Below are positions 35,808 to 56,725 of a stretch of DNA of 56,725 bases, piece by piece; the stretch's first letter is position 1; every line of letters begins with the position of its first letter. This stretch comes from a virus. The translations under genes and the position numbers were made by a program. The notes below the pieces were generated by a model. The model did not search any database and was not told the origin of the DNA. It was given only the letters and a program-made list of their open reading frames with translations. Where the stretch lies: positions 1 through 56,725 of the IMG/VR virus record IMGVR_UViG_3300020468_000008. One strand, written 5' to 3'.

Positions 35808-37694
35808 ATGACAAACCGATCTCAGTTTCCTGTATTTGACGCGAATAATGCGGCTCATGCCCCTTATATTTTAGATGGTATAAAATATAATTATAATACC
35901 TCTACGGGGCATTGGGAAACTGAGATCGGTAAAAATGTAACAATTGTTACAAAAGATACAGATGCTACATATAAAGTTACTCCTACTGTTGATCAATTTG
36001 TAGCACATTTAGCAAACGAACAACTTTTAACAGTAACACAAGTAGACAGTAACTTTATAAACTTAAAACAAGGTATTCTTGATCTTGAAAGAGAAACAAA
36101 TTATTTTCACGATGCTCTTCAAGATGGAATAAATAATGAAGCTAGTACTAGATTAGCAGAAGATACTAGAATTGAAGGTATTCTAACAAATTCTTCTACA
36201 GGTCTTGGATCAAAAATATCTACTTCTGGAGGTACTTTTACAGGTGCAGTTTTTGGTCCAACAGGCGCTGTAAATAGTGTTAGTGCACAATTAGTTAATG
36301 AGCAATTTTTAAATAGAGAATTTGGACAGTTTAATACTTCTCTTATTCCAAAAGTAAATAGTACACAGACTATTGGATCTTCTACAAAACAGTTTTCAGG
36401 AGTACATACTGAAAGTATATTTGTAGATACTTCAATTGAGCCAAGAGTAGCAAAAGCTCCTGATATAACTTTAAATGAGCTTCGATTCAATAGTACAACT
36501 GGTCAAAATGATTTAATACAATACAAAGATGTAAATATTGGTAGTACGACAAATAGATTTAATAAGTTATTTATTAGAGATATAGATGCAGCAGGAGACA
36601 CACTAACTTTAGGTACCTCCGCGTTAAAAGGCAAATCTGGTGGGGGTCTTCTTATTCCTGCAAATAGTGCTGTAGGAACTGCAGATAATGAAATTCCTAG
36701 TAATTTTGCTAATACTTTATTAGATGAAAGATTTGCAAATTATTTATTTAATAGTGATATTTTAAGTTCAAGTTTTACTGCGGGCGGAGCAATTGCATCG
36801 GGTAAACCTGTAAAGATAAATTTTGAAGGTACAGTTACTCAAATAACATCAAGTGTAAACTCTACAGGATTTATAGGATTTGCAACAAATACTGTAGCGG
36901 ACGGAGGCACTGTATTTGTTACAGTAAGCGGAAGAATCTCTGGACAAACAAATTTAACAACTGATTCTTTAGTTTATTTAGGGGATGATGGAACTCTTAG
37001 TCATACTAAAACAGATACGAATAAAAAAATAGGAGTTGCAGTATCAACAACTACTTTATTTTTATTTTCTACTGCTCCAACTTCTGAGTATATTCTTGCT
37101 AAAACCAAACTTGGATTTGATGATTTAAGTGCAGTTACAGGTACTCCTACAGGAGATGGAAGCTTAGAATATAGCTCTCTTACTGGAAGATTTACTTTTA
37201 CTCCTCCAAATTTATCTCCTTATGCTACTCAAACATATGTAACAACTCAAATAAATAATTTAATTTCCGGGGCTCCCGATGCTCTAAACACGCTAGATGA
37301 GCTAGCATCTGCTCTTAACGATAATGCAAATTTTGCTGCAGGAGTTACTACTGCGATTGGCTTAAAAGCTCCTTTAGCTTCACCAACATTTACAGGAACT
37401 CCTACAGTACCAGCGCCAGATTCTTCAAGTAATAGTAATCAAGTAGCTACTACTGCTTTTGTAAAAAGTCAATCCGGATCTTCTAGTTTATCTGGACTAA
37501 CAGATGTAACTATATCATCGAATTTACAAGATGGACAAGTTATAGCTTACGATGCGGTGGCAGGAATATTTAAAAATAGAGTTGGAACAGGTTCTGGATC
37601 TGGATCTTCTAATATTACTTTTATTGTTGATGGTGGCACAGCAACTACAGCAGCAAGTTCAGTAGATATATTTCTTGATGGGGGCGCCGCATAA
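35808..37694 (+). CDS. Tail fibre protein (628 residues)
   Basis: Begins with a short beta domain (PVFDANNAAHAPYILDGIKY) and a helical neck (about 75-125). SGGTFTGAVFGP units follow, then a GSSTKQFSGVHTESIFVDTS-type fibre module. Near the end are the widespread phage fibre modules DALNTLDELASALNDNANF and ASPTFTGTPTVP...NQVATTAFVKSQ. These repeats form trimeric fibre shafts. No enzymatic domain is seen. The stop overlaps the next start by one base. It shares the LASPTFTG/ATTAFV module with the genes at 37694 and 42388. Confidence 0.85.
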   Translation: MTNRSQFPVFDANNAAHAPYILDGIKYNYNTSTGHWETEIGKNVTIVTKDTDATYKVTPTVDQFVAHLANEQLLTVTQVDSNFINLKQGILDLERETNYFHDALQDGINNEASTRLAEDTRIEGILTNSSTGLGSKISTSGGTFTGAVFGPTGAVNSVSAQLVNEQFLNREFGQFNTSLIPKVNSTQTIGSSTKQFSGVHTESIFVDTSIEPRVAKAPDITLNELRFNSTTGQNDLIQYKDVNIGSTTNRFNKLFIRDIDAAGDTLTLGTSALKGKSGGGLLIPANSAVGTADNEIPSNFANTLLDERFANYLFNSDILSSSFTAGGAIASGKPVKINFEGTVTQITSSVNSTGFIGFATNTVADGGTVFVTVSGRISGQTNLTTDSLVYLGDDGTLSHTKTDTNKKIGVAVSTTTLFLFSTAPTSEYILAKTKLGFDDLSAVTGTPTGDGSLEYSSLTGRFTFTPPNLSPYATQTYVTTQINNLISGAPDALNTLDELASALNDNANFAAGVTTAIGLKAPLASPTFTGTPTVPAPDSSSNSNQVATTAFVKSQSGSSSLSGLTDVTISSNLQDGQVIAYDAVAGIFKNRVGTGSGSGSSNITFIVDGGTATTAASSVDIFLDGGAA

Positions 37695-41803: not shown

Positions 41804-42127
41804 ATGGCAGCTTTACAACATACATACGGGGATCCTGCAACTTCTTATAATATAACAGCGCTACATATTGTAGATTCTGGTATGGCCGATCATACATTTT
41901 TACAAGGTGCAGGAAACTTTATAAAAGATAATATAACCGCTCTACATATTGCAGATACTGGAATAGCTGATCATACATTTTTACAGGGTGCAGGAAACTT
42001 TATAAAAGATAATATAACCGCTCTACATGTTATGGATACTGGAATAGCTGATAGTATCTTTTTGAAAGGAGGAGTTTCAAGTCAATATGCAGAAACAACA
42101 GCCGCAGATCCGGAAAGTTGGGAATAA
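41804..42127 (+). CDS. 107-residue protein made of three 27-residue repeats
   Basis: After 16 lead residues come two nearly identical 27-residue units (ITALHI.D.G.ADHTFLQGAG and NFIKDN) and a third diverged one, then a short acidic tail. The regular hydrophobic spacing suggests a small beta-solenoid or fibre shaft. It lies between the 416-residue protein and an 82-residue protein, and all are tightly spaced. No family is recognised. Confidence 0.75.
   Translation: MAALQHTYGDPATSYNITALHIVDSGMADHTFLQGAGNFIKDNITALHIADTGIADHTFLQGAGNFIKDNITALHVMDTGIADSIFLKGGVSSQYAETTAADPESWE
41852..42013 (+). repeat. 81-bp tandem repeat (two near-identical copies)
   Basis: Units at 41852-41932 and 41933-42013 are almost identical at the DNA level, with a third partial, diverged copy to about 42070. 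The near identity, including synonymous positions, indicates recent duplication within the 107-residue protein. Confidence 0.85.
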
Positions 42128-42387: not shown

Positions 42388-44175
42388 ATGGCGTTTAATT
42401 TTCCAAACAGCCCATCCAATGGAGATACTACTACAGTAGGAGGTATTACTTATACTTATAATTCTACATTAGGCGTTTGGAAAAGCACTCCTGCAACAGC
42501 AGCTACTCCTGCTATTACTAGTGATGGTTCTACCCCAAGTTTATCTTCTGGAATTACTGCTGCCGAAATAAAAACTTTACTTGGAGTTACTACTGATATA
42601 TCGGCTGTAGTAAATGGAGCTCCAACAGGTCTTGATACTTTAGATGAAATAGCTGCTGCTATTAATGATGATACTACTTTTCATACAACAGTAACAAATG
42701 CTTTAGCAGCAAAAGCAGCACTAGCTTCTCCTGCTTTTACAGGTGCTCCTACAGCACCAACAGCAGGGGCAAGTACAAATACTACTCAGTTAGCAACAAC
42801 TGCATTTGTACAGCAAGAAATAGGAACTCCTTTTGTAAAAACAGATTTAAGTGTAACAACTGGAAGTGCAAGCGGCGGAGGCTCTTTATCTTATAATAAC
42901 TCTACTGGAGTATTTAGTTTTACGCCTGCAGGCACTGGATTTAGTGGAGTATTTAGCGATCTTAGTAGTAAGCCAACTACTATATCTGGATATGGTATCA
43001 CAGATGCATTTGATGGTGTCTTTGCATCTCTTAGTAGTAAGCCTACTACCATATCTGGCTACGGCATTACCGATGGATATACTACAGGAGCACATATTGT
43101 TCCTGCAACAACTGATGTATATGATTTAGGCTCTTCAACTCATAGATTTCGACACTTATATCTAAAAGGAAGTAGTATATATTTAGGGGCAGGGTCTGAT
43201 CAAGTTACTTTAACTGCTAGTGGTGGAAAATTACAATCAGGTAGTAATGAATATTTAATTAAAGGCGAAAATATTGACCTAGGAAGCTATAATCTTACTA
43301 CTACTGGCAAAATTTTATTTGCAAATATGTATTCAGCGCTTTCTGATTTACCAAGCGCTACAACGTATCATGGTATGTTTGCACACGTTCACGCAACTGG
43401 AGCAGCATACTTTGCACATGCGGGAAACTGGGTAGAACTTGCAAATAAATCTTATGTAGATACACAAATTACTGGCTTAGTTGACTCTGCGCCAGGTGCA
43501 TTAGATACTTTAAATGAACTTGCAGCAGCTCTTAATGATGATGCAAGTTTTTCCACAACAGTTACAAATAGTTTAGCTGCAAAAGCGCCTTTAGCAAGTC
43601 CTACATTTACAGGAGCCCCTGCAGCACCTACAGCAGGTTCTGGAACAAATACCACTCAACTTGCAACTACTGCATTTGTAACTGCAGCTGTTGCTGCAGG
43701 AGGTGGAGGAGGAGGTGGAGCTTCTGTATCTACTTCTGATTCTGCACCAAGCAGTCCAAGTGATGGAGATCTTTGGTATAATACAAGTGTAGGTGGATTG
43801 TTTGTATACTATCAAGATGCAGACTCTTCCCAATGGGTAGAAATTGTAGGTAAAACAGGTGCTACAGGTCCTGCAGGAGCAGGAGCAGGATCTTTTGTAG
43901 AAAAAACTTCATCATATACAGCAGTTGCAGGGGATAAATTAATAGTAGATACATCTAATGCTGTTACTATAACTTTGCCTACAAGTGCAACAATAGGCGA
44001 TGAAATAAGAGTTATAGATGGTACTGGAAACGCAAATACAAATAATATTACTATTGCAAGAAATGGGCATAAAATTCAAGGTGCAGCATCAAATTTAACA
44101 GTAGGTACAGAACGAGCCGCATTTGGCCTGGTATATTATAATGCAGCCCAAGGCTGGCTGTTAACGGAGCGATAA
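42388..44175 (+). CDS. Adhesin/fibre 1 of the modular array (595 residues)
   Basis: AGGAG lies just upstream. It starts with the array's common N-terminal module (FNFPNSPSNGDTTTVGGITY, then TYNSTLGVW). Next are two LASP.FTGAPTAPTAG...TTAFV fibre modules, GYGITD repeats, GSSTHRFRHLYLKGSSIYLG, the SATTYHGMFAHVHATGAAYF module shared with the 37694 gene, DSAPSSPSDGDLWYNTS with FVYYQDADSSQWVEI, and a short collagen-like GATGPAGAGAG. The last 85 residues are a compact beta domain (GDKLIVDTSNAVTITLPTSA) like the C-terminal heads of many phage fibres. It is the first of six proteins with this N-terminal module. Confidence 0.85.
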   Translation: MAFNFPNSPSNGDTTTVGGITYTYNSTLGVWKSTPATAATPAITSDGSTPSLSSGITAAEIKTLLGVTTDISAVVNGAPTGLDTLDEIAAAINDDTTFHTTVTNALAAKAALASPAFTGAPTAPTAGASTNTTQLATTAFVQQEIGTPFVKTDLSVTTGSASGGGSLSYNNSTGVFSFTPAGTGFSGVFSDLSSKPTTISGYGITDAFDGVFASLSSKPTTISGYGITDGYTTGAHIVPATTDVYDLGSSTHRFRHLYLKGSSIYLGAGSDQVTLTASGGKLQSGSNEYLIKGENIDLGSYNLTTTGKILFANMYSALSDLPSATTYHGMFAHVHATGAAYFAHAGNWVELANKSYVDTQITGLVDSAPGALDTLNELAAALNDDASFSTTVTNSLAAKAPLASPTFTGAPAAPTAGSGTNTTQLATTAFVTAAVAAGGGGGGGASVSTSDSAPSSPSDGDLWYNTSVGGLFVYYQDADSSQWVEIVGKTGATGPAGAGAGSFVEKTSSYTAVAGDKLIVDTSNAVTITLPTSATIGDEIRVIDGTGNANTNNITIARNGHKIQGAASNLTVGTERAAFGLVYYNAAQGWLLTER

Positions 44176-45494
44176 TGGCAACTTATTCAAGCATAAGATA
44201 TGTTTCTACAGGAGGTGGGGGTGCAGGAGTAACTGTATACGCAAACTTTGCTGCATTTCCTGCAAGCCCGAGTGAAGGAGACTTAGCATACGCAAACGAT
44301 ACAGACGCTTTGTATGTGCGAAAAGGTTCTTCATGGAATAGAATTGATAGTGGCGAAGAAGCGCCTGTAATTCTTACTGAACCTCCTACAGCAACTCAAA
44401 ATTTAGCTATTGATGGAACAACAAAAGTAGTTACAATGACTGCTCAAGATCCTGAAGGATTTGGTATTACTTATGGAATTGCATATGCTACCGCAAACAA
44501 TGCTCGTCCTACTCAACTAAGTGCTGATACTACTATAAATCAAGGCACGGGAGCATATACTTTTACTCCCTCTACAACTCAAGCCCATGCAGGAAATTTT
44601 AAAGCGCGACTAAGTGCTTCAGATGGGGCAAAAACTACGACTCGACTAGTAAATTTTGGACTATCATTTAATGTAACACTTAGCTACCTTGTTGTAGCAG
44701 GAGGAGGTGCAGGAGGTAAAGGCGTATCTGGAGGTGGTGGCGGTGCTGGAGGTTTACTTTATAGCACTAGTGGAAGTTTTCCTTTAAATACAAACTTTAC
44801 AGTCGCAGTAGGGGCAGGAGGTGCATATGTTTCGGCAAATGCAGATGGTAATGCTGGAGCCAACTCTAGTATTTCGGGTTCCGGACTCACTACTATTACC
44901 GCCATAGGCGGAGGCGGTGGTGGAGGACAAAAAGCATCTACTTCTACTGCTGCAGAACTAGCGGGGGGTTCCGGTGGTGGTGGTACAGGATATAATAACA
45001 CTGGTACAGTTACAGGCCCCGGAGGTAATGCTACTAGTGGTCAGGGTAACGCAGGAGGTACTGGAAGCTATGGAACAGGTTTTGGCGGCGGGGGTGGCGG
45101 TGCCGGTCAAGCCGGAGGCAATCATAATGATTCTGGCAGTGCTCAATCGAAAGGAGGAGACGGCCTAGAGTATAGTATTAGTGGTACAGCTACTTACTAC
45201 GCAGGTGGAGGCGGTGGCGGTGGCTATAACACTTCGGGCAAGGCAGGAGGACAGGGCGGAGCTGGAAATGGCGGTTCAAGAGCTGCTATTGGAGGAGATG
45301 CTACAGCTAACACTGGTGGTGGAGGAGGTGGAGTAAGTGATGCAGGTCGAAGTGGTGCAGGCGGTAGCGGTATTGTTATTATTCGTGCTGCTAATACATA
45401 CAGTGCCAGCGGCTCTGGCTTTACAGAAACAACCTCTGGATCAGATAAAATTTGGACATTTACAGGCAACGGAACAATAACATTCTCATCATAG
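44175..45494 (+). CDS. Adhesin 2: Ig-like plus glycine-rich domain (439 residues)
   Basis: It overlaps the previous stop (TAATG). The N-terminus (MATYSSIRYVSTGGGGAGVT) lacks the common start module but carries the SEGDLAYANDTDALYVRKGS variant of the internal module. Residues about 70-165 are a cadherin/Ig-like domain (DPEGFGITYGIAYA, NFKARLSASDGAKT). Residues about 170-410 are a glycine-rich domain with YLVVAGGGAGGKG and many GGGG blocks closing with GSGIVIIRA. Such glycine-rich folds form polyglycine-II sandwiches at the tips of phage adhesins such as T-even gp38. Host-surface binding is the likely job. Confidence 0.85.
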   Translation: MATYSSIRYVSTGGGGAGVTVYANFAAFPASPSEGDLAYANDTDALYVRKGSSWNRIDSGEEAPVILTEPPTATQNLAIDGTTKVVTMTAQDPEGFGITYGIAYATANNARPTQLSADTTINQGTGAYTFTPSTTQAHAGNFKARLSASDGAKTTTRLVNFGLSFNVTLSYLVVAGGGAGGKGVSGGGGGAGGLLYSTSGSFPLNTNFTVAVGAGGAYVSANADGNAGANSSISGSGLTTITAIGGGGGGGQKASTSTAAELAGGSGGGGTGYNNTGTVTGPGGNATSGQGNAGGTGSYGTGFGGGGGGAGQAGGNHNDSGSAQSKGGDGLEYSISGTATYYAGGGGGGGYNTSGKAGGQGGAGNGGSRAAIGGDATANTGGGGGGVSDAGRSGAGGSGIVIIRAANTYSASGSGFTETTSGSDKIWTFTGNGTITFSS

Positions 45495-45503
45495 GAGTAG
45501 ATA

Positions 45504-46934
45504 ATGGCAACTAACTTTCCAAACAGTCCTTCAAATGGTGCAACTCATACTTTTGGGGGTACTACATATACCTATAGTACTTCTGTAGGTGCTTGGACTG
45601 CTCCTGCATCTGGGGGAGGGGGAGGTGCCTCCGTAACTGTATCAGAAACTGCTCCTTCTAGTGCTTCTGTAGGAGATCTATGGTTTGATCCAAGTGTATT
45701 GAAGACATTTGTCTACTATAATGATGGTACTGCAAATCAGTGGGTTCAGAATAATCCTACAGGTAGCGGAGGAGGTGGTAGTGCCGGAGCATCTGTAACA
45801 GCATCGGATACTGCTCCCTCTTCTCCAAGTGCAGGAGATTTATGGTATAAGTCAGACACAAATGCACTATATGTATACTATAACGATGGAGACTCAAGTC
45901 AATGGGTCGGAATATCTGGACCTGCTGGAGCCACGGGAGCTACGGGAGCCACGGGAGCCACGGGAGCTGCTGCTACTGGCTATGGACAAGTTCCAATTGT
46001 TTATACAGAGCCACCTACAACTCATACTTTAAATAGTGATGGTAGTACTAGCACTGTGCAGATGCAGGCAGTTGATCCTGAAGGAACCTCAATCACCTAT
46101 GCAATTGCATATGCAAATGCTACAAATGCACGCCCAAATCAACTTGCAGCAGATACAAGTATAAATCAAACTACAGGAACTTTTACTTTTGATCCTTCTA
46201 CAACTACTTCTCATGCAGGAAGTTTTAAAGCACGACTAAGTGCTTCAGATGGAATTACACACGCTACTCGTTTTGTAGATTTTACTTTGAGTTTTTATCC
46301 TATTGCGAGCAGTGCTATACTTGCACAATATCATTTTTATGACACAAATTCGTATAATCCTTCTACAAGTACGACTGCCTTGAATGATATTTCAGGAAAT
46401 AGTAATAATCAAACAATTACTAATCCTGGGACTCATACTTCAGACAGTAATCTGACTTTTAATGCTAACACTTATATTAATTTCACTGGTTTGAATGCAA
46501 CAAAAGCTTGGTTTGTATTACTGTATCCTACTACTGGATGGGATGCGACAGTTTTATGGAATGAGGGCACTGCTGGCAGTGTTTTTCACTCGACTTTCCA
46601 TTCTACCGATTCATCACATGGTTACTATAGTGGTTATTCAGCTCACTCTGGAGAAACAATTGTAGATAGAGTTAATGGTACAAATCCAACTAATAGACAG
46701 ACAGCATATAATGCTATTGATATAGGTAAAATGAATAGTGTTATAAACTCAGGAACAAATATGACACCTGGACTTCAATACGCTAATTACCCAAGTTGGG
46801 ATGATGAACACCTTGTAAGAGCAATGGTATTTTTTAATAGAGCAATTACTTTAACAGAAATGGAAGCTTTACACAATTTCTATAGAACAAATTGGCTTGC
46901 AGCAGGCGGCACAATGCCAACGTGGGGTAACTAA
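45504..46934 (+). CDS. Adhesin 3: Ig-like plus ConA-like domain (476 residues)
   Basis: GGAG lies upstream. Common N-terminal module (TNFPNSPSNGATHTFGGTTY, then YSTSVGAW), two copies of the SAPSS...GDLW....FVYY..G....W module, a collagen-like GATGATGATGATGAAATG stretch at about 145-165 and the Ig-like domain (DPEGTSITYAIAYA, FKARLSASDGITHA). The last 200 residues look like a concanavalin-type lectin domain that has lost the usual DG.W motif (STTALNDISGNSNNQTITNP, YINFTGLNATKAWFVLLYPT, MVFFNRAITLTEMEALHNFY). Carbohydrate binding is likely. The next gene begins two bases later. Confidence 0.83.
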   Translation: MATNFPNSPSNGATHTFGGTTYTYSTSVGAWTAPASGGGGGASVTVSETAPSSASVGDLWFDPSVLKTFVYYNDGTANQWVQNNPTGSGGGGSAGASVTASDTAPSSPSAGDLWYKSDTNALYVYYNDGDSSQWVGISGPAGATGATGATGATGAAATGYGQVPIVYTEPPTTHTLNSDGSTSTVQMQAVDPEGTSITYAIAYANATNARPNQLAADTSINQTTGTFTFDPSTTTSHAGSFKARLSASDGITHATRFVDFTLSFYPIASSAILAQYHFYDTNSYNPSTSTTALNDISGNSNNQTITNPGTHTSDSNLTFNANTYINFTGLNATKAWFVLLYPTTGWDATVLWNEGTAGSVFHSTFHSTDSSHGYYSGYSAHSGETIVDRVNGTNPTNRQTAYNAIDIGKMNSVINSGTNMTPGLQYANYPSWDDEHLVRAMVFFNRAITLTEMEALHNFYRTNWLAAGGTMPTWGN

Positions 46935-46935
46935 A

Positions 46936-48276
46936 ATGGCGATTAATTTTCCAAATAGCCCATCAAACGGGGCAACTCATACAGCTGCAGGCCAGACATT
47001 TACATATGATGGCACTGCAGGAGTATGGAATCCTCAAGAAGGTACTCCTGTATCTACGGGTACAAGTGCGCCTTCGAGCCCCTCTGCTGGTGATCTTTGG
47101 TTTGATACATCTTCGGGCACTCTTTACTTTTATTATGCCGATGGTTCTTCCAATCAATGGATTGGTGTAAGTGGTCCTGCTGGAGCCACTGGAGCCACTG
47201 GAGCAACAGGTGCGGCGGGAGCAAATGCTGCCCCAGTAAGCTATACGGCACAAACAAATCTTCCGAGCTCTGGAAATACTGTAGGATCTTTTGCATGGCT
47301 TACAAGTACAAATCAACTAGCAGTAGCAGAATCTACAAGTAATTGGAGTATATTCACTAGAGATACTACAACTGATTTTACTGCAACAGGAGGAACAACT
47401 TCAACATACACAGGAGATGGAACAAATGGAACAAATGGTGTTGGCTATAAAGTTCATATTTTTACTTCTTCTGGAAACTTTGTAACAAGTGCATCAAAAA
47501 GTTTTGATTATATTGTAGTTGCAGGAGGAGGTTCTGGAGGACCAAGACACTCTGGTGGTGGAGGTGCTGGAGGATATATTGCACAAACAGGAGTAACAAT
47601 TGCGGCAGGAACGCATGCAATTGTAATCGGAGGTGGCGGTGCTGGAATCGCAGCGTCTGCGGGCACTGCCGGAAATAATGGTAGTAATACGACTTTTAAC
47701 AGTCATACTGCTATAGGAGGTGGAGGTGGTGGTTATTCAACGACTGCTGCGGGTAATGGTGGGTCCGGAGGCGGTTCTTCAAGTTGGAACAGTCTTACTA
47801 GTCAAGGTAGTGGAACAACCGGACAAGGATATGCTGGCGGGGCTGGATTTTTTCAAAGTGCAGGAGATATTCGAGTCTCCGGAGGAGGTGGAGGTGCTTC
47901 CGAAGTCGGTGAAAGTGGTAGTGCAACCACAGATGGAGATGGAGGAGACGGAATACAAAATTATATAACCGGTACAGGACACTACTGGGCCGGGGGAGGT
48001 GGTGCTGGTAACTGGAACACTGGTCGAGACGGCGGAGACGGCGGAAAAGGTGGTGGAGGTGGTGGCGGAGCCACTCACGGTAGCGGAGGAACAGGAGACA
48101 CTAATGCTCTAAATGCAGGAGCTAATGGAGAAGGTTCTGGAAATCCTTCTGCAGGAGGCGCGGGAGGTGCAAATACTGGAGGAGGTTCCGGTGGCGGAGC
48201 ACAGACTTATAGCAGTTATGTAGGGGGCTCAGGTAACGGCGGTTCTGGCGTTGTAATTATAAGGTACGAGACATAA
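46936..48276 (+). CDS. Adhesin 4: collagen-like neck plus glycine-rich tip (446 residues)
   Basis: ATG at 46936 is chosen so that the protein starts with the common module (INFPNSPSNGATHTAAGQTF, YDGTAGVW); the earlier ATG at 46897 lies in the previous gene. It then has SAPSSPSAGDLWFDTSSGTL, a collagen-like GPAGATGATGATGAAGA, and a short beta domain. From about residue 190, the glycine-rich tip begins (FDYIVVAGGGSGG, many GGGGGA blocks) and ends with GSGVVIIRYET. No Ig-like domain is present, unlike its neighbours. It is the receptor-binding tip type also seen at 44175 and 53964, but the glycine-rich core sequence differs. Confidence 0.85.
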   Translation: MAINFPNSPSNGATHTAAGQTFTYDGTAGVWNPQEGTPVSTGTSAPSSPSAGDLWFDTSSGTLYFYYADGSSNQWIGVSGPAGATGATGATGAAGANAAPVSYTAQTNLPSSGNTVGSFAWLTSTNQLAVAESTSNWSIFTRDTTTDFTATGGTTSTYTGDGTNGTNGVGYKVHIFTSSGNFVTSASKSFDYIVVAGGGSGGPRHSGGGGAGGYIAQTGVTIAAGTHAIVIGGGGAGIAASAGTAGNNGSNTTFNSHTAIGGGGGGYSTTAAGNGGSGGGSSSWNSLTSQGSGTTGQGYAGGAGFFQSAGDIRVSGGGGGASEVGESGSATTDGDGGDGIQNYITGTGHYWAGGGGAGNWNTGRDGGDGGKGGGGGGGATHGSGGTGDTNALNAGANGEGSGNPSAGGAGGANTGGGSGGGAQTYSSYVGGSGNGGSGVVIIRYET

Positions 48277-48277
48277 A

Positions 48278-48589
48278 ATGGCACACTACGCAAAAGTAAA
48301 AAATGGAATAGTAGAGACTGTAATTGTAGCAGAGGCAGAGTTTTTTGAAACTTTTGTTGATAATTCTCCAGGTGAGTGGATTCAAACATCCTATAATACA
48401 CGTGGAGGAATACACTACGATCCTGTAACTGGAGAGCCTAGCGAAGATCAAAGCAAAGCTTTGCGAAAAAATTATGCAACTCCGGGAGGCTCTTATAATA
48501 AAGAAGCGGATGTATTTTATCATCCCCAGCCCGGAGCAGATTGGACACTAGATACTACTACGTACCTGTGGAAGGCCCCAGAGGAGTAA
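48278..48589 (+). CDS. Small fibre-associated protein, marine-phage family (103 residues)
   Basis: Starts one base after adhesin 4. The sequence pattern (MAHYAKVKNGIVETVIVAEA, then WIQTSYNTRGGIHYDP, LRKNYATPGGSYN and a W-rich end WTLDTTTYLWKAP) matches a small protein that I know to be widespread among cyanophages and other marine phages beside fibre genes. Its function is not established; a role in fibre assembly or as a fibre cap has been guessed. It is the only small, non-modular gene inside the adhesin array. Confidence 0.85.
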   Translation: MAHYAKVKNGIVETVIVAEAEFFETFVDNSPGEWIQTSYNTRGGIHYDPVTGEPSEDQSKALRKNYATPGGSYNKEADVFYHPQPGADWTLDTTTYLWKAPEE

Positions 48590-48592
48590 AGA

Positions 48593-51133
48593 ATGACAGC
48601 GTTAAACTTTCCAGACAGTCCTAGCAATGGTGATACATACCAAGGGTATACGTACAATAGTACAAAAACTGCTTGGGCTAAACCAGATACTCCAGATCCT
48701 GATGCAAGAACCGCAGTATACGCAAACATTGCAGCACTGCCTACAAGTGGCACTGCTGGTGATATGGCATATGTAACTGCCACAAATCGACTTTATTTGT
48801 GGAATGGTTCAGGCTGGTACAATATTGCACTTATTAATACTACCCCTTCAATCTCTGGAGTAAGTGCTACTTACAACTTGGCAATTGATGGCACTGCCAC
48901 AACTGTAACGATTACAGCTTCTGACCCAGAAGGGCTGCCAATTACATACAGCATTGTTTCTGATACTTCTGGAAATACTGCGACAGTAACGCAAGGTACG
49001 GGTGCAAGTACAAATGTATTTACAATTACTCCTTCAACAAATACGGCTCATGCAGGAACTTTCTCGCTTACTTTCCGTGCTTCAGATGGTGTAAATATTG
49101 CATCGTCGGCAGCATCGTTTACGCTTGTGTTTAGTGTACAAAATCAAAAATATACAACTGCTTTGTTTACTTCAGTAGGTGCAAATAATGCTACAAATGC
49201 CTCATTTGATGATAAGTCTACTAGCAATCATACAATTTTAGCAGGGGGAGAGGCTCATCAAACTACATTTAGTCCTTATCGACATGGAGGGCACTCTGTA
49301 TATTTAGATGGAGACGATGCAATAGGTGTAGGAGTTGGCTCCTATGCATTGGATTGGAGTAATGGACAAACTTGGACAGTTGAATTCTGGATGAAAAGAC
49401 AAGGTAGAAATCCAGACGGACACCTATTTATGAAGTATCCTGGAAGTGGTTCAAATATTAGCGGTATACGTGCGTATGTAAGCGGAAGTGAAGGAAGAAT
49501 TGGACTTCACTACAATAGTGGTACAGAGTTGACCACTGCTGGTACTAGAGCAGATATTGCAGATGGAGACTGGCATCATGTTGCAGTAACTCGTGGAAGC
49601 GGATATTTTAAAATCTGGGTGGATGGCCAACTAGATGCAACGGTCAGTAATTCAGATGCAGATGGCATGGCTAGTAGTAGTAGCTGGGCAATTGGACGGC
49701 ATGGAAGTGGAACTGCAAGTTCTTATTTAAAAGATACTCTTCTTCGAGATTTTCGAATTGTAGGAAGTGAAGTATATACATCAAACTTTACTGCTCCTAC
49801 CGAAACTTTAACAGCGATATCAGGAACTCAAGTACTTATAGCAAATAATTTGCCATACTTAAAAGATTCAAGTAGTAATGCAACTCCTTTGACTTATTAT
49901 GGGGATCCTTCGATTGAAGGAGCAGGGCCGTTTGATAAGCTAGAATACACAGCAGCAACGCATTTAGGATCTGCACATTTTGATAGTAGCGGCGATTATT
50001 TAATGGCTCCCTCTGGTACTATATCAAGTCAAAATAACAGTGCTGATTTTAATTTTTCAAGCGGAGCATGGACATGGGAGGCTTGGATATATCCTTCAAG
50101 TTTGACAAGTCCTGCATCTCCTCATGTATTTACATCTCGTTATAATGGTACTTATAGAAGCTCTTTTTACTATAATTCTAGCGCCAGTCAACTTACGTAT
50201 TGGTCAAACGGCAGTGCAAGAATATCAGGCCCTGCATTAAATCAAAATCAGTGGTACCATGTAGCTTTATCTTCTGACGGCACAACAACAACTATGTGGG
50301 TAAATGGAGAATCTAAAGGAACTACTACTCATATGCAATCAAATTATGATCAAACAATGTATGTGGGAGCTGCAGCAGGGGCGAGTCTAGAGACTGCAGG
50401 GTACTGGAACGGAAACATTACAGATGCTCGCGTAGTAAAAGGAACTCAAGTATACACAAGTAATTTTACTCCTCCAGCAGCACCTCTCACGGCAGTTACA
50501 AATACAAAACTACTTATACAAAATACTGATGGAGGTATCATTGATAGGTCTCAAGGACAACGGCGAATAAAGTTAATAGGAGATGTAAAATCTTCTACTA
50601 CTCAAAATAAATTTTTAAGCTCTTCAATAAAGTTTGATGATAACGGTGATTACATACTTTTAAAGCCTGGACAAACCTTTTGTTTTGGCACTAAAGATTT
50701 TACAGTAGAATACTGGATTTATTATAATGCGATAGGAAACTATGATTATGTATATGATGGTAGAAATAGTAGCCAAACTACAGGGTCTTGGAGTGTAGCT
50801 CATGGTTACGGTGGAGGAAATGCCACGATACTTCAGTGGGCAAGTGGAGGTGGCGCAGTTCTTACTGCCGCCAGTAATCCGTCTACAAATCAATGGGTGC
50901 ATGTTGCATTCTGCAGAAGTGGCTCAACCTTAAAACTATTCTATGATGGGACTGAAAACCAAAGTGTTACAGATACTACAAACTACTCTACAAATCTTAC
51001 TCATTCTTACTTTGGATGTAGACACAGTGTCGAACATTATTTAAATGCATACCTAAGTGATTTTCGAGTAACAAACGGCCTCGCAAGATACACAGCTAAT
51101 TTCACAGCCCCAACGGCAGCATTAAAGGGATAA
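48593..51133 (+). CDS. Adhesin 5: Ig-like plus three LamG/ConA-like domains (846 residues)
   Basis: Shortened common module (LNFPDSPSNGDTYQGYTYNS, KTAWAKP), the AALPTSGTAGDMAYVTATNR module, an Ig/cadherin-like domain (DPEGLPITYSIVSDTSG, FSLTFRASDGVNIA) and three consecutive concanavalin/LamG-type domains at roughly 185-405, 410-625 and 625-846. Each shows WT.EFW or WTWEAWIY, W.HVA..R....K...DG and a closing LRDFRI/ARVVKGTQVYTSNFTPP/FRVTNGLARYTANFTAPTA strand. LamG folds bind sugars, so glycan recognition is likely. It is a close paralogue of the next gene. Confidence 0.88.
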   Translation: MTALNFPDSPSNGDTYQGYTYNSTKTAWAKPDTPDPDARTAVYANIAALPTSGTAGDMAYVTATNRLYLWNGSGWYNIALINTTPSISGVSATYNLAIDGTATTVTITASDPEGLPITYSIVSDTSGNTATVTQGTGASTNVFTITPSTNTAHAGTFSLTFRASDGVNIASSAASFTLVFSVQNQKYTTALFTSVGANNATNASFDDKSTSNHTILAGGEAHQTTFSPYRHGGHSVYLDGDDAIGVGVGSYALDWSNGQTWTVEFWMKRQGRNPDGHLFMKYPGSGSNISGIRAYVSGSEGRIGLHYNSGTELTTAGTRADIADGDWHHVAVTRGSGYFKIWVDGQLDATVSNSDADGMASSSSWAIGRHGSGTASSYLKDTLLRDFRIVGSEVYTSNFTAPTETLTAISGTQVLIANNLPYLKDSSSNATPLTYYGDPSIEGAGPFDKLEYTAATHLGSAHFDSSGDYLMAPSGTISSQNNSADFNFSSGAWTWEAWIYPSSLTSPASPHVFTSRYNGTYRSSFYYNSSASQLTYWSNGSARISGPALNQNQWYHVALSSDGTTTTMWVNGESKGTTTHMQSNYDQTMYVGAAAGASLETAGYWNGNITDARVVKGTQVYTSNFTPPAAPLTAVTNTKLLIQNTDGGIIDRSQGQRRIKLIGDVKSSTTQNKFLSSSIKFDDNGDYILLKPGQTFCFGTKDFTVEYWIYYNAIGNYDYVYDGRNSSQTTGSWSVAHGYGGGNATILQWASGGGAVLTAASNPSTNQWVHVAFCRSGSTLKLFYDGTENQSVTDTTNYSTNLTHSYFGCRHSVEHYLNAYLSDFRVTNGLARYTANFTAPTAALKG

Positions 51134-51137
51134 TACA

Positions 51138-53960
51138 ATGGCAGTAGTAAATTTACCAGATAGTCCAGCTAACGGTACTACACAGACTGTTAATGGAATT
51201 ACTTATACTTACAACTCTAGTAAGGGATACTGGACGACCGCGAGTTCCGGCGGAGGCGGTGGAGGCGGTGCTTCGGTAACTACAAGTGATTCGGCTCCTT
51301 CTAGCCCTTCAGATGGTGACTTATGGTACGATACTGATGATGGTGGTATGTTTGTATACTACTCAGATGGAACTTCAAATCAATGGGTAGAAGTGATAGG
51401 GACGCAAGGAGCCCAAGGAACTTTAAGTACTAGTGACTCGGCCCCTTCTAGTCCTTCGGATGGAGATCTTTGGTATGATACTGATGACGGAGGATTATTT
51501 ATATACTATGCAGACGGTTCTTCAAATCAGTGGGTAGAGGTAGTGGGCCAAACTGGAGCTACAGGTCCTCAAGGCTCGGCAGGAGCCGCAGGAGCAACAA
51601 CAATTGTAGCAAATACAACAGCGCTGCTAGCAATTTCTTCTCCCTCTACAGGAGAAATGGTATATGTAACTGGAAATAGTACTCTATACTTCTACAATGG
51701 TAGCGGGTGGTATAAAATTGCACTTATCAATACAACTCCTTCTATATCAGGAGCAAACTCTACTTATAATCTTGCAACTGATGGATCAGCAACTACGGTA
51801 ACTATTGTAGCTTCGGATCCAGAAGGATTGCCAATTACTTATAGTATCGCTTCTGATACATCAGGAAATATCGCTACCGTGGCTCAAGGTACTGGAGCAA
51901 GTACAAATGTATGGACAATTACTCCTTCAACGAATACATCTCATTTTGGTACGTTTAGTCTTACGTTCCGAGCATCAGACGGTGTAAACTTTGCAACAGC
52001 AGCGTCGAGTTTTACATTAGCATTTGCTATACAGAATAGTAACTATACAACTGCATTAATTACTTCCGTAGGAGCAAATAACGCTGTAAATAATTCTTTT
52101 GATGATAAGTCCGCTTCAAACCATACACTAACCCCCGCAAATCAGGCGCATCAAACTACTTTTAGTCCTTATCGACAAGGTGGATATTCAACTTACTTTG
52201 ATGGTGCTACGGATTATTTAACAATTGCAGATTCAGCAGAACATGATTTTGGTACAGGAAATTTTACTGCAGAGTTTTGGTGGTGGCCCGAAACTGTTAC
52301 AGGAAATCCTAGTGGATATCATATTGCAATTAGTAGTCTTTCTGCGAGCGGAACTCAAATAGGATACGACGAAGGAACTAGAAAATTATATTTTTATAAC
52401 GCTACAAATATTATACAAAATACTTCTGCTACACCAAATGTCAAAGCTTGGAATCATATAGCAGTAAGTAGATCAGGAACAACTGTTAGTTTATATTTAA
52501 ACGGCACTCGAGTGGGAACAGCAACTCATAGTGCCGGAGTAGATTTTAGTACTTTAAGTATTGGAAGATATAACTCTGGTAGTTATGAAATTGATGGATA
52601 TCTTCGAGATGTACGATTTGTAAAAGGAACTGCTGTTTATGATCCTGCACAAACATCTTTAACAGTTCCAGATGAGCCTCTTACAGCGATAACAAATACA
52701 ACACTTCTTACTTGTCATCTGCCATATATAGCAGATGGCTCGACTACAGGACATACTATAACTGTAAATGGAAATGTATCTACAAAACCCTTTACTCCTT
52801 TTGACTATGAAACATATAGTGTTGCGGCTAATTCTGGATCTATGTGTTTAGATGGAACAACCGATAGAGTAAGCGCTGCTGCTAGCACAGATTTTGGTTT
52901 TGGAACAGGAGACTTTACAGTAGAATGGTGGATTTATTTTAATTCTATTACAAATTATGAATACCATATTGATATGAGATCAGCAGACAATGATACTCCA
53001 TTATCAATTTTTACAAGAACAAACTTACAAAATCAAATCGGAGTATATGTAAGTAATTCAACTATAGCGTCCGGAACATATAGCTTTAAACCTGGTATTT
53101 GGACTCATTATGCGATTTGTAAGACTGGAGGATATCTAAAAGGATATTTCGATGGTAAAGAAGACTTTTCTATATCTTGTACAAGGGACTATGGAACGAG
53201 TGAAACTATAAGTATTGGATCAGTTTATGGAAATAATAACTATTATGTAAACGGTAATATGGCAGATGTTCGTATAGTAAAAGGCACAGCAGTTTATACC
53301 TCTGCATTTACTCCACCAACTGCCCCACTCACAGCAGTTACAAATACAAAACTACTCGTACAGAGCACAGATGCAGGCATTATTGATAAGGCTCAAGTAG
53401 CCCAGCAAGTAAAGTTATTTGCAGATGCTAAGTCTTCTACAACTTATACAAAGTTTTTAACTTCTTCTATGAAATTTGATGGCACCGGAGACTACTTAGA
53501 GACAGGACCACATGATTTTCTTATGGACGGTGATTTCACTTTTGAATTTTGGATATATCCAGTTGGTACTCAAGTTGCATACTGTGCAGTAATGTGGGGC
53601 ACCACACAGAGTGACCCAGGTATTTTCTTAGCGTATGATGCGAGTGCTGCAAATTTTAGATTTACAAATTGGAGTGCAACTCCACTTACTTCTTCTGGAA
53701 TTCCAACTGCGGGGCAGTGGACTCACGTAGCAATAGTAAGAAACGGAACAGGATCAAACAATTTAAAAATATACTATGATGGTACTATGAATGCTCAAGC
53801 TACAAATACAGCTACTCATGGGCGTAATGAAAAATATCATATAGGAGCAGGTGCGGGAGGCTATGGTTTTAATGGGTACTTATCAGATTTTCGCGTAACA
53901 AAAGGTTTAGCAAGATACACAAGTAATTTCACAGCGCCGACAGCGGCTTTAGAGGGATAA
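51138..53960 (+). CDS. Adhesin 6: Ig-like plus three LamG/ConA-like domains (940 residues)
   Basis: Common start module (NLPDSPANGTTQTVNGITYT, SSKGYW), two copies of DSAPSSPSDGDLWYDTDDGG with a short collagen-like GATGPQGSAGAAGA, the SSPSTGEMVYVTGNSTLYFY module, the Ig-like domain (DPEGLPITYSIASDTSG) and three LamG/ConA-type domains (for example FTAEFWWWPETVTGN, FTVEWWIYFNSITNY, FTFEFWIYPVGTQ; W.H.A....G....Y.DG; FRVTKGLARYTSNFTAPTAAL at the end). The Ig and LamG part aligns along its length with adhesin 5 while the N-terminal half has more modules. Gene duplication followed by divergence of the sugar-binding faces is the simplest reading. Confidence 0.88.
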   Translation: MAVVNLPDSPANGTTQTVNGITYTYNSSKGYWTTASSGGGGGGGASVTTSDSAPSSPSDGDLWYDTDDGGMFVYYSDGTSNQWVEVIGTQGAQGTLSTSDSAPSSPSDGDLWYDTDDGGLFIYYADGSSNQWVEVVGQTGATGPQGSAGAAGATTIVANTTALLAISSPSTGEMVYVTGNSTLYFYNGSGWYKIALINTTPSISGANSTYNLATDGSATTVTIVASDPEGLPITYSIASDTSGNIATVAQGTGASTNVWTITPSTNTSHFGTFSLTFRASDGVNFATAASSFTLAFAIQNSNYTTALITSVGANNAVNNSFDDKSASNHTLTPANQAHQTTFSPYRQGGYSTYFDGATDYLTIADSAEHDFGTGNFTAEFWWWPETVTGNPSGYHIAISSLSASGTQIGYDEGTRKLYFYNATNIIQNTSATPNVKAWNHIAVSRSGTTVSLYLNGTRVGTATHSAGVDFSTLSIGRYNSGSYEIDGYLRDVRFVKGTAVYDPAQTSLTVPDEPLTAITNTTLLTCHLPYIADGSTTGHTITVNGNVSTKPFTPFDYETYSVAANSGSMCLDGTTDRVSAAASTDFGFGTGDFTVEWWIYFNSITNYEYHIDMRSADNDTPLSIFTRTNLQNQIGVYVSNSTIASGTYSFKPGIWTHYAICKTGGYLKGYFDGKEDFSISCTRDYGTSETISIGSVYGNNNYYVNGNMADVRIVKGTAVYTSAFTPPTAPLTAVTNTKLLVQSTDAGIIDKAQVAQQVKLFADAKSSTTYTKFLTSSMKFDGTGDYLETGPHDFLMDGDFTFEFWIYPVGTQVAYCAVMWGTTQSDPGIFLAYDASAANFRFTNWSATPLTSSGIPTAGQWTHVAIVRNGTGSNNLKIYYDGTMNAQATNTATHGRNEKYHIGAGAGGYGFNGYLSDFRVTKGLARYTSNFTAPTAALEG

Positions 53961-53963
53961 ACA

Positions 53964-55349
53964 ATGGCAACTAACTTTCCAGATAGTCCGTCAAACGGCG
54001 CCACACATACGTTTGGAGGGACTACTTATACTTACAATTCTACAAAAGGTGTGTGGACAGCTCCTGCAGGAAATACTCTAACAGGATTAACAGATACTCC
54101 TGCTAACTTTAGTGGTGCAGGAGGAAAAACTTTAAAAGTAAACTCCGGAGCGACTGCGGTTGAGTTTGTAACGGTAGGTGCTGCAGGAGCAGGAGAAACT
54201 CCAATTATTTATACGGAACCGCCTACTACTCATGCGCTAAATGTAGATGGAAGCACTAGTACAGTTCAGATGCAAGCCTATGACCCGGAAGGAACAGCCA
54301 TTACATATGGAATTGCATATGCAAATTCTACAAATGCTCGTCCTTCTCAGCTTGCGGCAGATACAACTATTAATCAGACTACGGGTACATTTACATTCGA
54401 TCCTAGTAGCACAAATTCAGATGCAGGAAGTTTTAAAGCTCGATTAAGCGCGTCGGATGGAATTACAAGTTCTACTCGTTTTGTAAATTTTAATCTTACT
54501 TTTAATCATACTTTGCACTGGCTTGTAATCGCCGGCGGGGGTGGTGGTGGTTCTACACTTCCTGCATATGCAAATGGTGGTGGTGGAGGTGCCGGGGGTT
54601 ATCGCGCTTCTTGGAACAATGAGGCTTCTGGTGGAGGAGGCTCTGCAGAGGCAGCAATCGTAGGAAGTCCTGGCAATGTATATACAATTACAGTAGGAGC
54701 AGGAGGAAACGGAGCAAGCTCTTCAGCGGTTGGAACAGATGGAGCAGATAGCTCACTAGCAAGAACTACTGGAGCATCAATGACCACAATTACATCAGTG
54801 GGAGGAGGTGCAGGAGGCTTCGCGAGTGGAAGTGCTGGACGTAATGGTGGTTCCGGTGGTGGTGCTAACCATTATCAAGGTACAGCAGGAACTGGAACTG
54901 CAAACCAAGGTTATGCCGGAGGTACTGCAGGAGGCGCGCCTTATGGAGGTGGTGGTGGTGGTGGTGCTGGAGGTGTCGGCGAAAACCAAAATTCCGGAGA
55001 TACTGTAGGCGGTGATGGTGGTGTAGGAGTGGTTTCTACAATCACTGGATCTTCTGTTGAAAGAGCTGGTGGTGGAGGTGCTGCTTCGGCAGGTACAGCT
55101 AGCGGTGGCGGTGGTGCTGGTGCAACCTCTCCAGGAAATGGTACTGCAGGTACTGCAAATACTGGAGGCGGTGGTGGTGCTGGAGGTATTACTGGAGGTC
55201 AAAGTGTTACAGGTGCTGCTGGAGGTAGCGGTGTAGTTATTATTCGAACTTCTATTGCAGCACAATCTACAACAGGTTCTCCTACTATTACTACAGTTGG
55301 TTCTGATACTGTATACCAATTTAATGCTAATGGAACAATTACTTTCTAA
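53964..55349 (+). CDS. Adhesin 7: Ig-like plus glycine-rich tip (461 residues)
   Basis: Common start module (TNFPDSPSNGATHTFGGTTY, YNSTKGVW) nearly the same as adhesin 3, then GLTDTPANFSGAGGKTLKVN, the Ig-like domain (DPEGTAITYGIAYA, FKARLSASDGITSS) and, from about residue 185, a glycine-rich tip beginning HWLVIAGGGGGGSTLP and ending GSGVVIIRTS. The order equals that of adhesin 2 but with the common start. It is the last gene of the block; the terminator follows 5 bases after its stop. Confidence 0.87.
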   Translation: MATNFPDSPSNGATHTFGGTTYTYNSTKGVWTAPAGNTLTGLTDTPANFSGAGGKTLKVNSGATAVEFVTVGAAGAGETPIIYTEPPTTHALNVDGSTSTVQMQAYDPEGTAITYGIAYANSTNARPSQLAADTTINQTTGTFTFDPSSTNSDAGSFKARLSASDGITSSTRFVNFNLTFNHTLHWLVIAGGGGGGSTLPAYANGGGGGAGGYRASWNNEASGGGGSAEAAIVGSPGNVYTITVGAGGNGASSSAVGTDGADSSLARTTGASMTTITSVGGGAGGFASGSAGRNGGSGGGANHYQGTAGTGTANQGYAGGTAGGAPYGGGGGGGAGGVGENQNSGDTVGGDGGVGVVSTITGSSVERAGGGGAASAGTASGGGGAGATSPGNGTAGTANTGGGGGAGGITGGQSVTGAAGGSGVVIIRTSIAAQSTTGSPTITTVGSDTVYQFNANGTITF

Positions 55350-55353
55350 TAAA

Positions 55354-55378
55354 AAAGGGGCTTAGAGCCCCTTTATTT
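55354..55378. terminator. Bidirectional rho-independent terminator
   Basis: A 9-bp stem (55354-55362 with 55366-55374) with a 3-base loop, preceded by AAAAAA and followed by ATTTCTT, works in both directions. It separates the plus-strand adhesin array from the minus-strand genes. The stop codon of the minus-strand gene (55362-55364) lies in the hairpin itself. Confidence 0.88.
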
Positions 55379-55601
55379 CTTCTTGAAGTGCCATTGTGAA
55401 TCCACGTATTGCCATTTCAAGTCTTTGTACTTTTAAATTTTCTTGCTCTAATTGTTCTTGTAAATCTTGAATTTGAGCAAGATAAGATATAGCATTATCT
55501 GAAAGTTCTGGAGCTTCTTCTACTGATCCTCCCTCATTCTCCCATTCATTTTCAGGCAAAAGCTCAATACTGTCATTCTTCTGATTCGGAGATTTTGTCA
55601 T
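55362..55601 (-). CDS. 79-residue coiled-coil protein (paralogue of next gene)
   Basis: The ATG (complement of 55599-55601) has a GAGG sequence upstream on the minus strand. The N-terminus is acidic; residues about 37-75 form a helix (AISYLAQIQDLQEQLEQENL, then RLEMAIRGFTMALQEEI). The same helix pattern occurs in the adjacent 87-residue protein. The family resembles DUF6447-type small phage proteins (helix with Q..DL..QL......A..GF...L..E) in my memory. Function is unknown. It overlaps the upstream gene by 29 bases. Confidence 0.75.
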   Translation of the reverse strand: MTKSPNQKNDSIELLPENEWENEGGSVEEAPELSDNAISYLAQIQDLQEQLEQENLKVQRLEMAIRGFTMALQEEIKGL

Positions 55602-55836
55602 CGCCTACCTCATCTGTTTGAACTCTATTTTGTGCTTCTATTTCAACTTTTAGTAAACTAATAAAACCTGCTCTAGCAACTTCTGCTTGATGCATTTTTG
55701 CTTTTAATTGAGTCATTTGTGCATTTAAATCCTGCACTTGATCTATATAATATTTAGAATTATAATTTAGTTTTTCAATCTCATGCTCTTCTCCGTCTAA
55801 GACAAGAGTAGGATTGTCTGGGTTAATAATTTGCAT
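55573..55836 (-). CDS. 87-residue DUF6447-like coiled-coil protein
   Basis: The minus-strand ATG is preceded by AGGAG. It starts MQIINPDNPTLVLDGEEHEI, a short beta hairpin typical of this small family (a D.GEE.E...L pattern), then a helix (YYIDQVQDLNAQMTQLKAKM, HQAEVARAGFISLLKVEIEA). It is translated from the same message as nrdB and ends with an acidic tail. Function is unknown; the family is frequent beside nucleotide-metabolism genes in marine phages as I recall. It is the fuller version of the pair. Confidence 0.75.
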   Translation of the reverse strand: MQIINPDNPTLVLDGEEHEIEKLNYNSKYYIDQVQDLNAQMTQLKAKMHQAEVARAGFISLLKVEIEAQNRVQTDEVGDDKISESEE

Positions 55837-55844
55837 TGGCTCTC

Positions 55845-56725
55845 CTATTTAAAAATATCTTGCCAGTTTCCGGTAGTGCTAGCACGAGCATACTCGGTAG
55901 CACGATTTTCAAAAAAGTTTGTATGTTCTACTGCATTTAGCATATAATCTAGCCAAGGTAATGGATTATCTTCACTATGAAAAATCTTTTTCATACCAAG
56001 ACCTAAAAGTCTTCGGTCTGCAATATATCGAATATATTCCTTAACTTCTTCGGGAGTGAGATCTGGAACATCTGCATCTTCAAAACAAAGATCAATAAAA
56101 GCATCTTCAAGTTCTACTGTACGCTCTGCTGCACAATAAATTTCATACTTAAGATCATCGTTCCATAAATCTGGATTTTCTGCAATAAATGTACGAAATA
56201 ATTGTGACATTCCTTGTACATGTAGAGTTTCATCTCGTACAGACCAAGTAACAATTTGACCCATTCCTTTCATAAGATTATGTCTTGGAAAGTTTAAAAG
56301 TATTGCAAAACTACTAAATAATTGTACGCCCTCTGTAAATCCAGAGTAAATAGCCATAGTTTTTGCAATATTCATATCAGTGTCCATACCAAAGTTTGAT
56401 AGATGTTCGTGCTTATCCATCATAGCTTTATGTTTCATGAACTTTTTATACTCATCGTCTCGAAACCCAAGAGTCTCTAATAGTAATGAGTATGCTTCTT
56501 GATGTACTGCTTCCATTGCTGCAAAAGCAGACAACATCATTCTAACTTCAGGTTGTTTAAAAGTAGGCAAGTAGTGAGTTGCATAACCACAACATACATC
56601 TACATCTGCTTGTGTAAAGAAACGAAAAATTTGATTTATAAGTTTCTTATTGCCTGGAGTTAGTTTCTCTCGATAATCTTTTAAATCATCCGCAAGATTG
56701 ACTTCATCAGGAAGCCAATGCATAT
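55845..56725 (-). CDS. nrdB: Ribonucleotide reductase beta subunit, class I (partial, 5' end outside)
   Basis: This frame encodes at least 292 residues of a class I RNR small subunit, which supplies the radical for reduction of ribonucleotides to deoxyribonucleotides. In the visible part, the di-metal ligands are all present: Asp40 (FTQADVDV), Glu71 and His74 (MEAVHQEAY), Glu131 (FTEGVQLF), Glu165 and His168 (RDETLHVQ). The radical Tyr78 stands four residues after His74, as in E. coli NrdB Tyr122. The apparent ATG at 56723 probably is an internal Met, because the family has about 40-60 further residues upstream. It is on the minus strand and reads towards the adhesin block. The alpha subunit would lie outside the window. 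Confidence 0.96.
   Translation of the reverse strand, partial: MHWLPDEVNLADDLKDYREKLTPGNKKLINQIFRFFTQADVDVCCGYATHYLPTFKQPEVRMMLSAFAAMEAVHQEAYSLLLETLGFRDDEYKKFMKHKAMMDKHEHLSNFGMDTDMNIAKTMAIYSGFTEGVQLFSSFAILLNFPRHNLMKGMGQIVTWSVRDETLHVQGMSQLFRTFIAENPDLWNDDLKYEIYCAAERTVELEDAFIDLCFEDADVPDLTPEEVKEYIRYIADRRLLGLGMKKIFHSEDNPLPWLDYMLNAVEHTNFFENRATEYARASTTGNWQDIFK

Follow-up and report, generated by a model that had tools for sequence, protein, structure and literature searches.

An array of plug-bearing fibre genes as a probable multi-fibre adsorption cassette in a marine siphovirus

A virus record in IMG/VR (IMGVR_UViG_3300020468_000008) carries a run of fibre genes that mostly open with the same short module and end in different tips, which raises the question of what one virus does with such a set. 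The window analysed here is that whole record of 56,725 bases. An earlier note on this DNA had described the locus as seven adhesins on a common adaptor, used as alternative or simultaneous binding heads or as a recombination cassette for switching hosts. We read the region as an adsorption cassette with several fibres, belonging to a marine siphovirus with a T5-like head, an explanation that, taken as a whole, we hold with a probability of roughly three in four. Six paralogous fibres would be made together, each mounted by its 33-residue N-terminal plug; after the plug, a stalk built from two related modules (SMOD and YMOD) and from collagen-like and Ig-like modules would lead to a receptor-binding tip.

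The setting is that of a tailed phage. The terminase of the window is about 50% identical to those of T5-like phages, and among the tail genes are those for a tape measure, for minor tail proteins of the lambda type and for a J-type tip protein of 2668 aa. The gene for this tip protein is followed by several fibre genes and then by the array (Table 1), whose proteins match PHROG fibre families other than T5 Ltf. The ORFs g1 to g7 are intact and collinear. The earlier count of seven genes had missed a 103-aa gene, g4b, that lies inside the array; with g4b included, all array genes are on one strand and separated by gaps of −1 to +10 nt, and most are preceded by purine-rich stretches resembling ribosome-binding sites. 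Beyond the terminator-like hairpin at the end of the array lie minus-strand genes, ribonucleotide reductase among them. A second IMG/VR record matches half of the array (positions 48238-56725) with 100% identity, and the array is therefore not an assembly artefact.

Table 1. Features of the fibre array and of one related upstream gene (positions in the window).
Feature	Position	Strand	Content	Remark
Upstream fibre gene	35808-37694	+	First ~37 residues a diverged plug	z 2.0-8.6 to the six plugs
g1, slot 1	42388-44175	+	Plug 42388-42486, fibre repeats, SMOD 43726-43845, XD2-like head 43888-44172	
g2	44175-45494	+	No plug; joint peptide MATYSSIRY 44175-44201, YMOD, Ig-like, Gly-rich tip 44670-45491	
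g3, slot 3	45504-46934	+	Plug, two SMODs, collagen-like, Ig-like, tip of unassigned fold 46293-46931	
g4, slot 4	46936-48276	+	Plug, SMOD, collagen-like, Gly-rich tip 47242-48273	
g4b	48278-48589	+	103 aa, probable tip-linked fibre chaperone	PHROG 7759
g5, slot 5	48593-51133	+	Plug, YMOD, Ig-like, three LamG/ConA domains	
g6, slot 6	51138-53960	+	Plug, two SMODs, collagen-like, YMOD, Ig-like, three LamG/ConA domains	
g7, slot 7	53964-55349	+	Plug, Ig-like, Gly-rich tip 54603-55346	
Terminator-like hairpin	55354-55374	.	End of array	9 bp stem, could serve both strands; from a consensus scan only

The N-terminal module claimed for six of the proteins is indeed shared. The segments are homologous over 33 residues in all 15 pairs (Smith-Waterman z 10.1-21.6), with 0 of 1000 shuffles attaining the observed score in each pair, so that non-homology, which the earlier note had named as refuting its view, was not borne out. 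The consensus of the six N-termini, about 33 residues long, is MAxNFPxSPSNGxTxTVxGxTYTYNSTxGxW, in which a Gly and a Trp are invariant. A profile search of viral contigs returned 327 that encode relatives, from which 73 loci were retained, and in these loci every strong match (189/189) sits at the start of an ORF, 184 times at an ATG and five times at a GTG. Plug copies from the same slot differ mostly silently (pooled pN/pS 0.25). This strict placement, together with the mostly silent divergence, supports a function of the protein at its N-terminus, most simply fibre mounting, and it is most likely that the plug docks the fibre onto the tail, either directly or via another fibre. The gene upstream of the array that starts with a diverged plug has orthologues in two related records, G001 and G047, that begin with a clear plug (MSSPTFPAGPSNGQAHTEFGITWNYNSS.GLWES), the G001 orthologue reaching z 7.1-13.5. 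That the plug is simply one more stalk repeat was rejected because it is strictly N-terminal; by hhalign it shows only weak similarity to SMOD and YMOD (P 2e-4 and 1e-4), which are related to each other (P 9.5e-8). A sequence-based search of the PDB gave no credible match for either the plug or SMOD, and we found no earlier description of the plug family in the literature.

Behind the plug, the stalks are modular. SMOD is the DSAPSS..GDLWY module of the earlier note and YMOD a module related to it, while the Ig-like label denotes a sequence pattern for which no Pfam family was matched. Both kinds of module had been assigned to every gene; their varied orders hold, but DSAPSS occurs only in g1, g3, g4 and g6, and the Ig-like domain is missing from g1 and g4. 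The seventh protein, g2, does share the inner modules as described, after a short, different N-terminus and without the plug.

Most of the tip assignments could be confirmed. Three tips are Gly-rich (PF21722; E 5e-16, 8e-12 and 7e-12), two carry triple LamG domains (PF13385; E 2e-49 and 3e-46), and a fibre head lies at the C-terminal end of g1 (PHROG 31104). The Pfam families on the array tips are Gly_rich_2 and Laminin_G_3, with no beta-helix family in the Pfam search. The tip of g3, previously called a divergent ConA domain, is unproven as such (hhalign probability 0.1 against LamG, from a weak three-row profile) and has no PDB or Pfam match. By sequence the g4 tip also finds no match in the PDB; it was matched by fold instead. 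Its AF2 model (pLDDT 88) resembles the Pam3 fibre (7ypx_A, Z 14.0) and the Bxb1 tail tip 9d93 (9d93_Qa, Z 14.8), and the tip is thus predicted to have the Gly-rich lattice fold of the Pam3/S16-gp38-type receptor-binding domain. The virus would in this way offer Gly-rich Pam3-like, triple-LamG and g3-type tips, which presumably bind receptors.

The first slot appears to be occupied by a fibre in two pieces. At its C-terminal end, g1 has a stretch of 95 residues homologous (E 3.7e-7) to residues 99-175 (chain numbering) of CBA120 TSP4, which we take to be the XD2-type docking part of TSP4-N. In CBA120, the XD2 of TSP4 binds TSP2, and the docking region of TSP4-N binds partner tailspikes (PMC8825819). 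The next gene, g2, starts with MATYSSIRY in place of the plug, and four related records (G007, G032, G034 and G047) show the same succession behind different upstream fibres: the head, a peptide of this kind (MANYSDIRY, MANYSDIK or MATYSSIRY), and after it the modules of stalk and tip. Because the g1 head is homologous to a docking domain and this layout is repeated, we propose that g1 ends in a socket of the XD2 type and that g2 is probably a detachable tip that plugs onto it by its short N-terminal peptide. Since g2 lacks a plug and follows the docking domain, it is better to count six docked fibres, one being made of two pieces, than seven equivalent heads; the idea of a set on a common adaptor stands for the six. 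The g2 gene itself looks mosaic, its YMOD and tip being closest to a second-slot gene of G003 and its Ig domain to slot 1; it may have arisen either by a split of slot 1 or by replacement of the plug of another gene.

The small gene g4b follows a particular kind of tip. Of 66 loci that carry a member of its family, many being close relatives, 64 have it directly 3' of a gene for a Gly-rich fibre, and the same order is seen among cultured phages, in those of Pelagibacter, Methylophilales, Roseobacter and Synechococcus. It comes after slot 4 in the window and in G001, and after slot 3 in G002 and G048; as it always stands behind the same Gly-rich tip type, it goes with the tip and not with the slot. 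Profile searches of Pfam and the PDB returned nothing credible for g4b. The AF2 model (pLDDT 93) has a sole match at Z of at least 2 among 114 re-aligned chains, Pam3 7ypx_a, at Z 5.3, which is middling and below a Z of 8, with an rmsd of 2.1 over 57 residues. Chain a of 7ypx has 162 residues, and on this length and the published description (PMC9608196) we take it to be the chaperone gp25. The best reading of g4b is most likely a tip-linked chaperone, which would aid the folding of Gly-rich tips and travel with one such tip.

Comparison with related genomes shows which parts of the array stay and which move. Complete arrays occupy the same place between conserved neighbours in G001 and G002, and complete or partial arrays are present in G003, G007, G032, G034 and G048; a single conserved copy in related phages, which the earlier note had set down as evidence against its view, was not seen. 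When genes of three related genomes were ranked by order, the best match in another genome fell in the same slot in 33 of 36 comparisons for the plug, 24 of 36 for the stalk and 12 of 36 for the tip, these comparisons being reciprocal and not independent. The expected C-terminal shuffling is thus present, with tips swapped and plugs staying in order. Slot 1 of G048 is about 97-100% identical to that of G001 (60-nt bins) for some 1500 nt, after which the tips are unrelated. In slot 3 of G002, the sequence changes at around nt 480-540 from slot-3-like to the slot-4 tip of G001, and the block with this tip and g4b is 93.4% identical over 1504 nt, while slot 6 of the same genome is a mosaic, at first like slot 6, next like slot 3 and finally like slot 1. 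The g3 tip of the window is found on slot 1 in G003 and G048, and the G001 orthologue of g3 has a Gly-rich tip instead. These mosaic genes support the earlier suggestion of a recombination cassette. Block ends often fall inside SMOD or the plug of the next gene, and the repeated modules are therefore likely crossover sites. On our reading, purifying selection keeps the plugs in array order while co-infecting relatives trade stalks, and tips above all, by homologous recombination between their repeated modules, which would alter the set of surface targets.

Such mobility invites the question of whether the fibres are displayed together. From the gene layout, simultaneous display on one virion is plausible. 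Of the two modes first proposed, alternative display by programmed switching (a shufflon, an invertible fibre or a DGR) is disfavoured and was rejected, with no invertase, integrase or reverse transcriptase and no long inverted repeats: six records, all possibly fragments, gave no RVT_1, resolvase or tyrosine-recombinase match, and no inverted repeats of at least 40 nt were found. One or a few fibres might nonetheless be made or mounted at a time, with the rest stored and chosen by recombination or regulation. Repeated modules could recombine within the array, and simultaneous mounting is itself presumed from the layout; the absence of such enzymes and repeats, the common strand, the tight spacing, the single terminator-like site at the end and the intact state of every ORF all argue against stored alternatives, which we regard as rather improbable. 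The plug, too, could be mainly a DNA recombination anchor, that is, a patch of homology for cassette swaps and not a protein part. Transferred blocks do stop within the plug of the next gene, as in G002 68176-69676 against G001 and in window 46005-46979 against G003. Against this, all 189 strong matches are strictly N-terminal, the plug protein is kept while its DNA drifts (the same pN/pS of 0.25), and the plugs within one genome are only about 62-79% identical in DNA, so that we consider an anchor in place of a docking element very unlikely; the two roles could also both hold.

The two inferred partnerships have competitors of their own. If g1 and g2 were independent fibres, the g1 head would be a receptor-binding tip and not a socket, as might be suspected from loci in which the head precedes an unrelated gene (L211-L215) and from the weakness of the joint motif in isolates. 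This motif, M-x(1,2)-[YLF]-x-x-[IVL]-[RK], was written post hoc, after examples had been seen; it follows the head in 9 of 20 dereplicated genes against a background of 3/97 (P 3e-6), in cultured isolates in 1/8 against 2/116 (P 0.18, not significant), and in a looser form in 6 of 8 isolates against 25/116 (P 0.003). The homology of the head to XD2, the recurrence of head, joint peptide and stalk-and-tip piece behind differing upstream fibres, and the fact that G001, G002 and G003 have these stalk and tip modules within a single chain all count against independence, which we judge unlikely; we retain the plug-in joint as an inference. That g4b is part of the virion, or caps the Gly-rich tip structurally, is likewise unlikely. 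The g4b model lacks the C-terminal helical trimerising domain of Pam3 gp25, and certain fibre assembly proteins, those of Mu and Ur-lambda, are reported to remain on the virion (cited in PMC9608196). The sole fold match of g4b, however, is to the fibre-binding domain of gp25, a chaperone that was not detected in Pam3 virions (PMC9608196), and a folding role is preferred.

The array is a variation on known modular and branched receptor-binding systems. Closest in organization are the tailspikes TSP1-4 of CBA120 and other Ackermannviridae (PMC8825819, PMC8432352, PMC11414711), which also gather several receptor-binding proteins in one locus, conserve the N-terminal parts used for assembly, swap receptor modules from one TSP to another and dock by a domain of the XD2 type. 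There, however, XD domains occur on two of four TSPs, whereas the 33-residue plug opens every docked fibre of the array; gp10-like XD2/XD3 domains are N-terminal on scaffold fibres, whereas the XD2 homologue here is C-terminal and present in g1 only; and four fibres bear beta-helix enzyme tips, compared with six fibres whose identified tips are Gly-rich or LamG. As the N-terminal XD domains that define scaffold fibres are missing, we do not file the array under the Ackermannviridae type. The LtfA-LtfB pair of DT57C/DT571-2 (PMC4728585) belongs to a T5-like siphovirus and includes a fibre that has no tail attachment of its own and is mounted via another; recombination fused this gene pair in DT530(1) (PMC4728585). 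It comprises only two fibres, with no shared N-terminal plug reported, an enterobacterial host and tips unlike those of the array. Pam3 gp24 and gp25 (PMC9608196, 7YPX) share with the array the Gly-rich tip fold (Z 14.0) and, probably, the fold of the small protein next to it (Z 5.3 to the fibre-binding domain), but Pam3 is a myophage with a single simple fibre, and its gp25 carries in addition a helical trimerising domain for which g4b has no counterpart. Klebsiella phage RaK2 (PMC10253068) has many modular fibre proteins with XD2-like domains proposed as branch points; unlike the phage of the array, it is a jumbo myovirus whose depolymerase fibres sit on gp528, a protein dedicated to scaffolding. 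The host recognition cluster of pelagimyophages and cyanomyophages is also a hypervariable marine fibre island, the structural region including ConA, collagen-like and Mtd domains, and the available part of its description presents a variable island with no shared plug, slot order or tip-linked chaperone (PMC7029224). Finally, in MA01, ACG-2014f and S-B68 several tail fibre or collar proteins start with the same plug family, but these are T4-like cyanomyophages with differing tips, and their annotation does not mark the plug as something the proteins have in common. New here are a plug common to the fibres, slots kept in order, a small partner tied to the tip and the spread across phage types.

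Retention of plug order with swapping of tips is how one virus lineage could keep changing its attachment targets. To our knowledge, how marine phages change their binding is mostly unknown, few of them being cultured. In the array, natural genomes keep a conserved plug apart from tips that can be exchanged, and a likely socket and a likely chaperone can be named.

The plug extends beyond the phage type of the window. The portal type of the window is missing from 25 of 32 plug-bearing records, many of them fragments; of the 17 plug-bearing records tested, 5 have Gp23, the capsid protein of T4-like phages; and a contig has up to nine plug matches. The surprise once attached to finding such an array in a siphovirus is accordingly weaker than claimed, given that such arrays also occur in T4-like phages and that the T5-like siphovirus DT57C already has a branched two-fibre design (PMC4728585). 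We suggest tentatively, at less than even odds, that the 33-residue plug is a general fibre-mounting element common to T5-like and T4-like marine phages, by which each virion would display six to nine different fibres together and in order, some of them bearing a detachable tip seated in a socket of the XD2 type, and that whole tip-plus-chaperone cassettes move between positions. Among cultured phages, a second plug variant used as query gave no match, whereas the first did, and no plugs were found in Melnitz and Mosig. Cultured T4-like cyanophages (Kyanoviridae) do contain them, with ten matches in MA01 and three each in ACG-2014f and S-B68, which makes virion content, plug function and tip specificity testable for the family; in the genes as read, these plugs stand at protein N-termini.

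Two features of the window precede the array of tail-fibre genes.

Features upstream of the array
Feature	Window position	Remarks
Mtd_N fibre	37694-40540	Loci compared: L379-L380, L383
107-aa protein, three tandem ~30-residue repeats	41804-42127	Immediately upstream of array

The orthologue of the Mtd_N fibre in two related viral genomes, G032 and G047, carries an XD2-like head at its end and is followed by a MATYSSIRY tip gene, the same layout as that of g1, the first fibre gene of the array. Among relatives, the C-terminal end of the Mtd_N fibre varies. The 107-aa repeat protein, which has no family match, shows 39% conservation in two other relatives, G001 and G002.

Window positions 48238-56725 are 100% identical to a second IMG/VR record, 3300020413_001650 (30.6 kb), which extends ~22 kb past the window end. 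Within 3687-30414, one marine virus has both T5-like packaging genes and tail components of lambda kind: a lambda-J-type tip protein, together with minor tail proteins of lambda type.

Cultured marine phages have genes for 2OG-Fe(II) oxygenases adjoining or close to their fibre genes (L361, L363, L375 and L376), and these enzymes possibly serve in fibre modification. In Pontimonas phage phiPsal1, the annotated gene preceding the homologue of g4b, the probable fibre chaperone, resembles a Gly-rich fibre gene read in the wrong frame (L373, 2808-2987).
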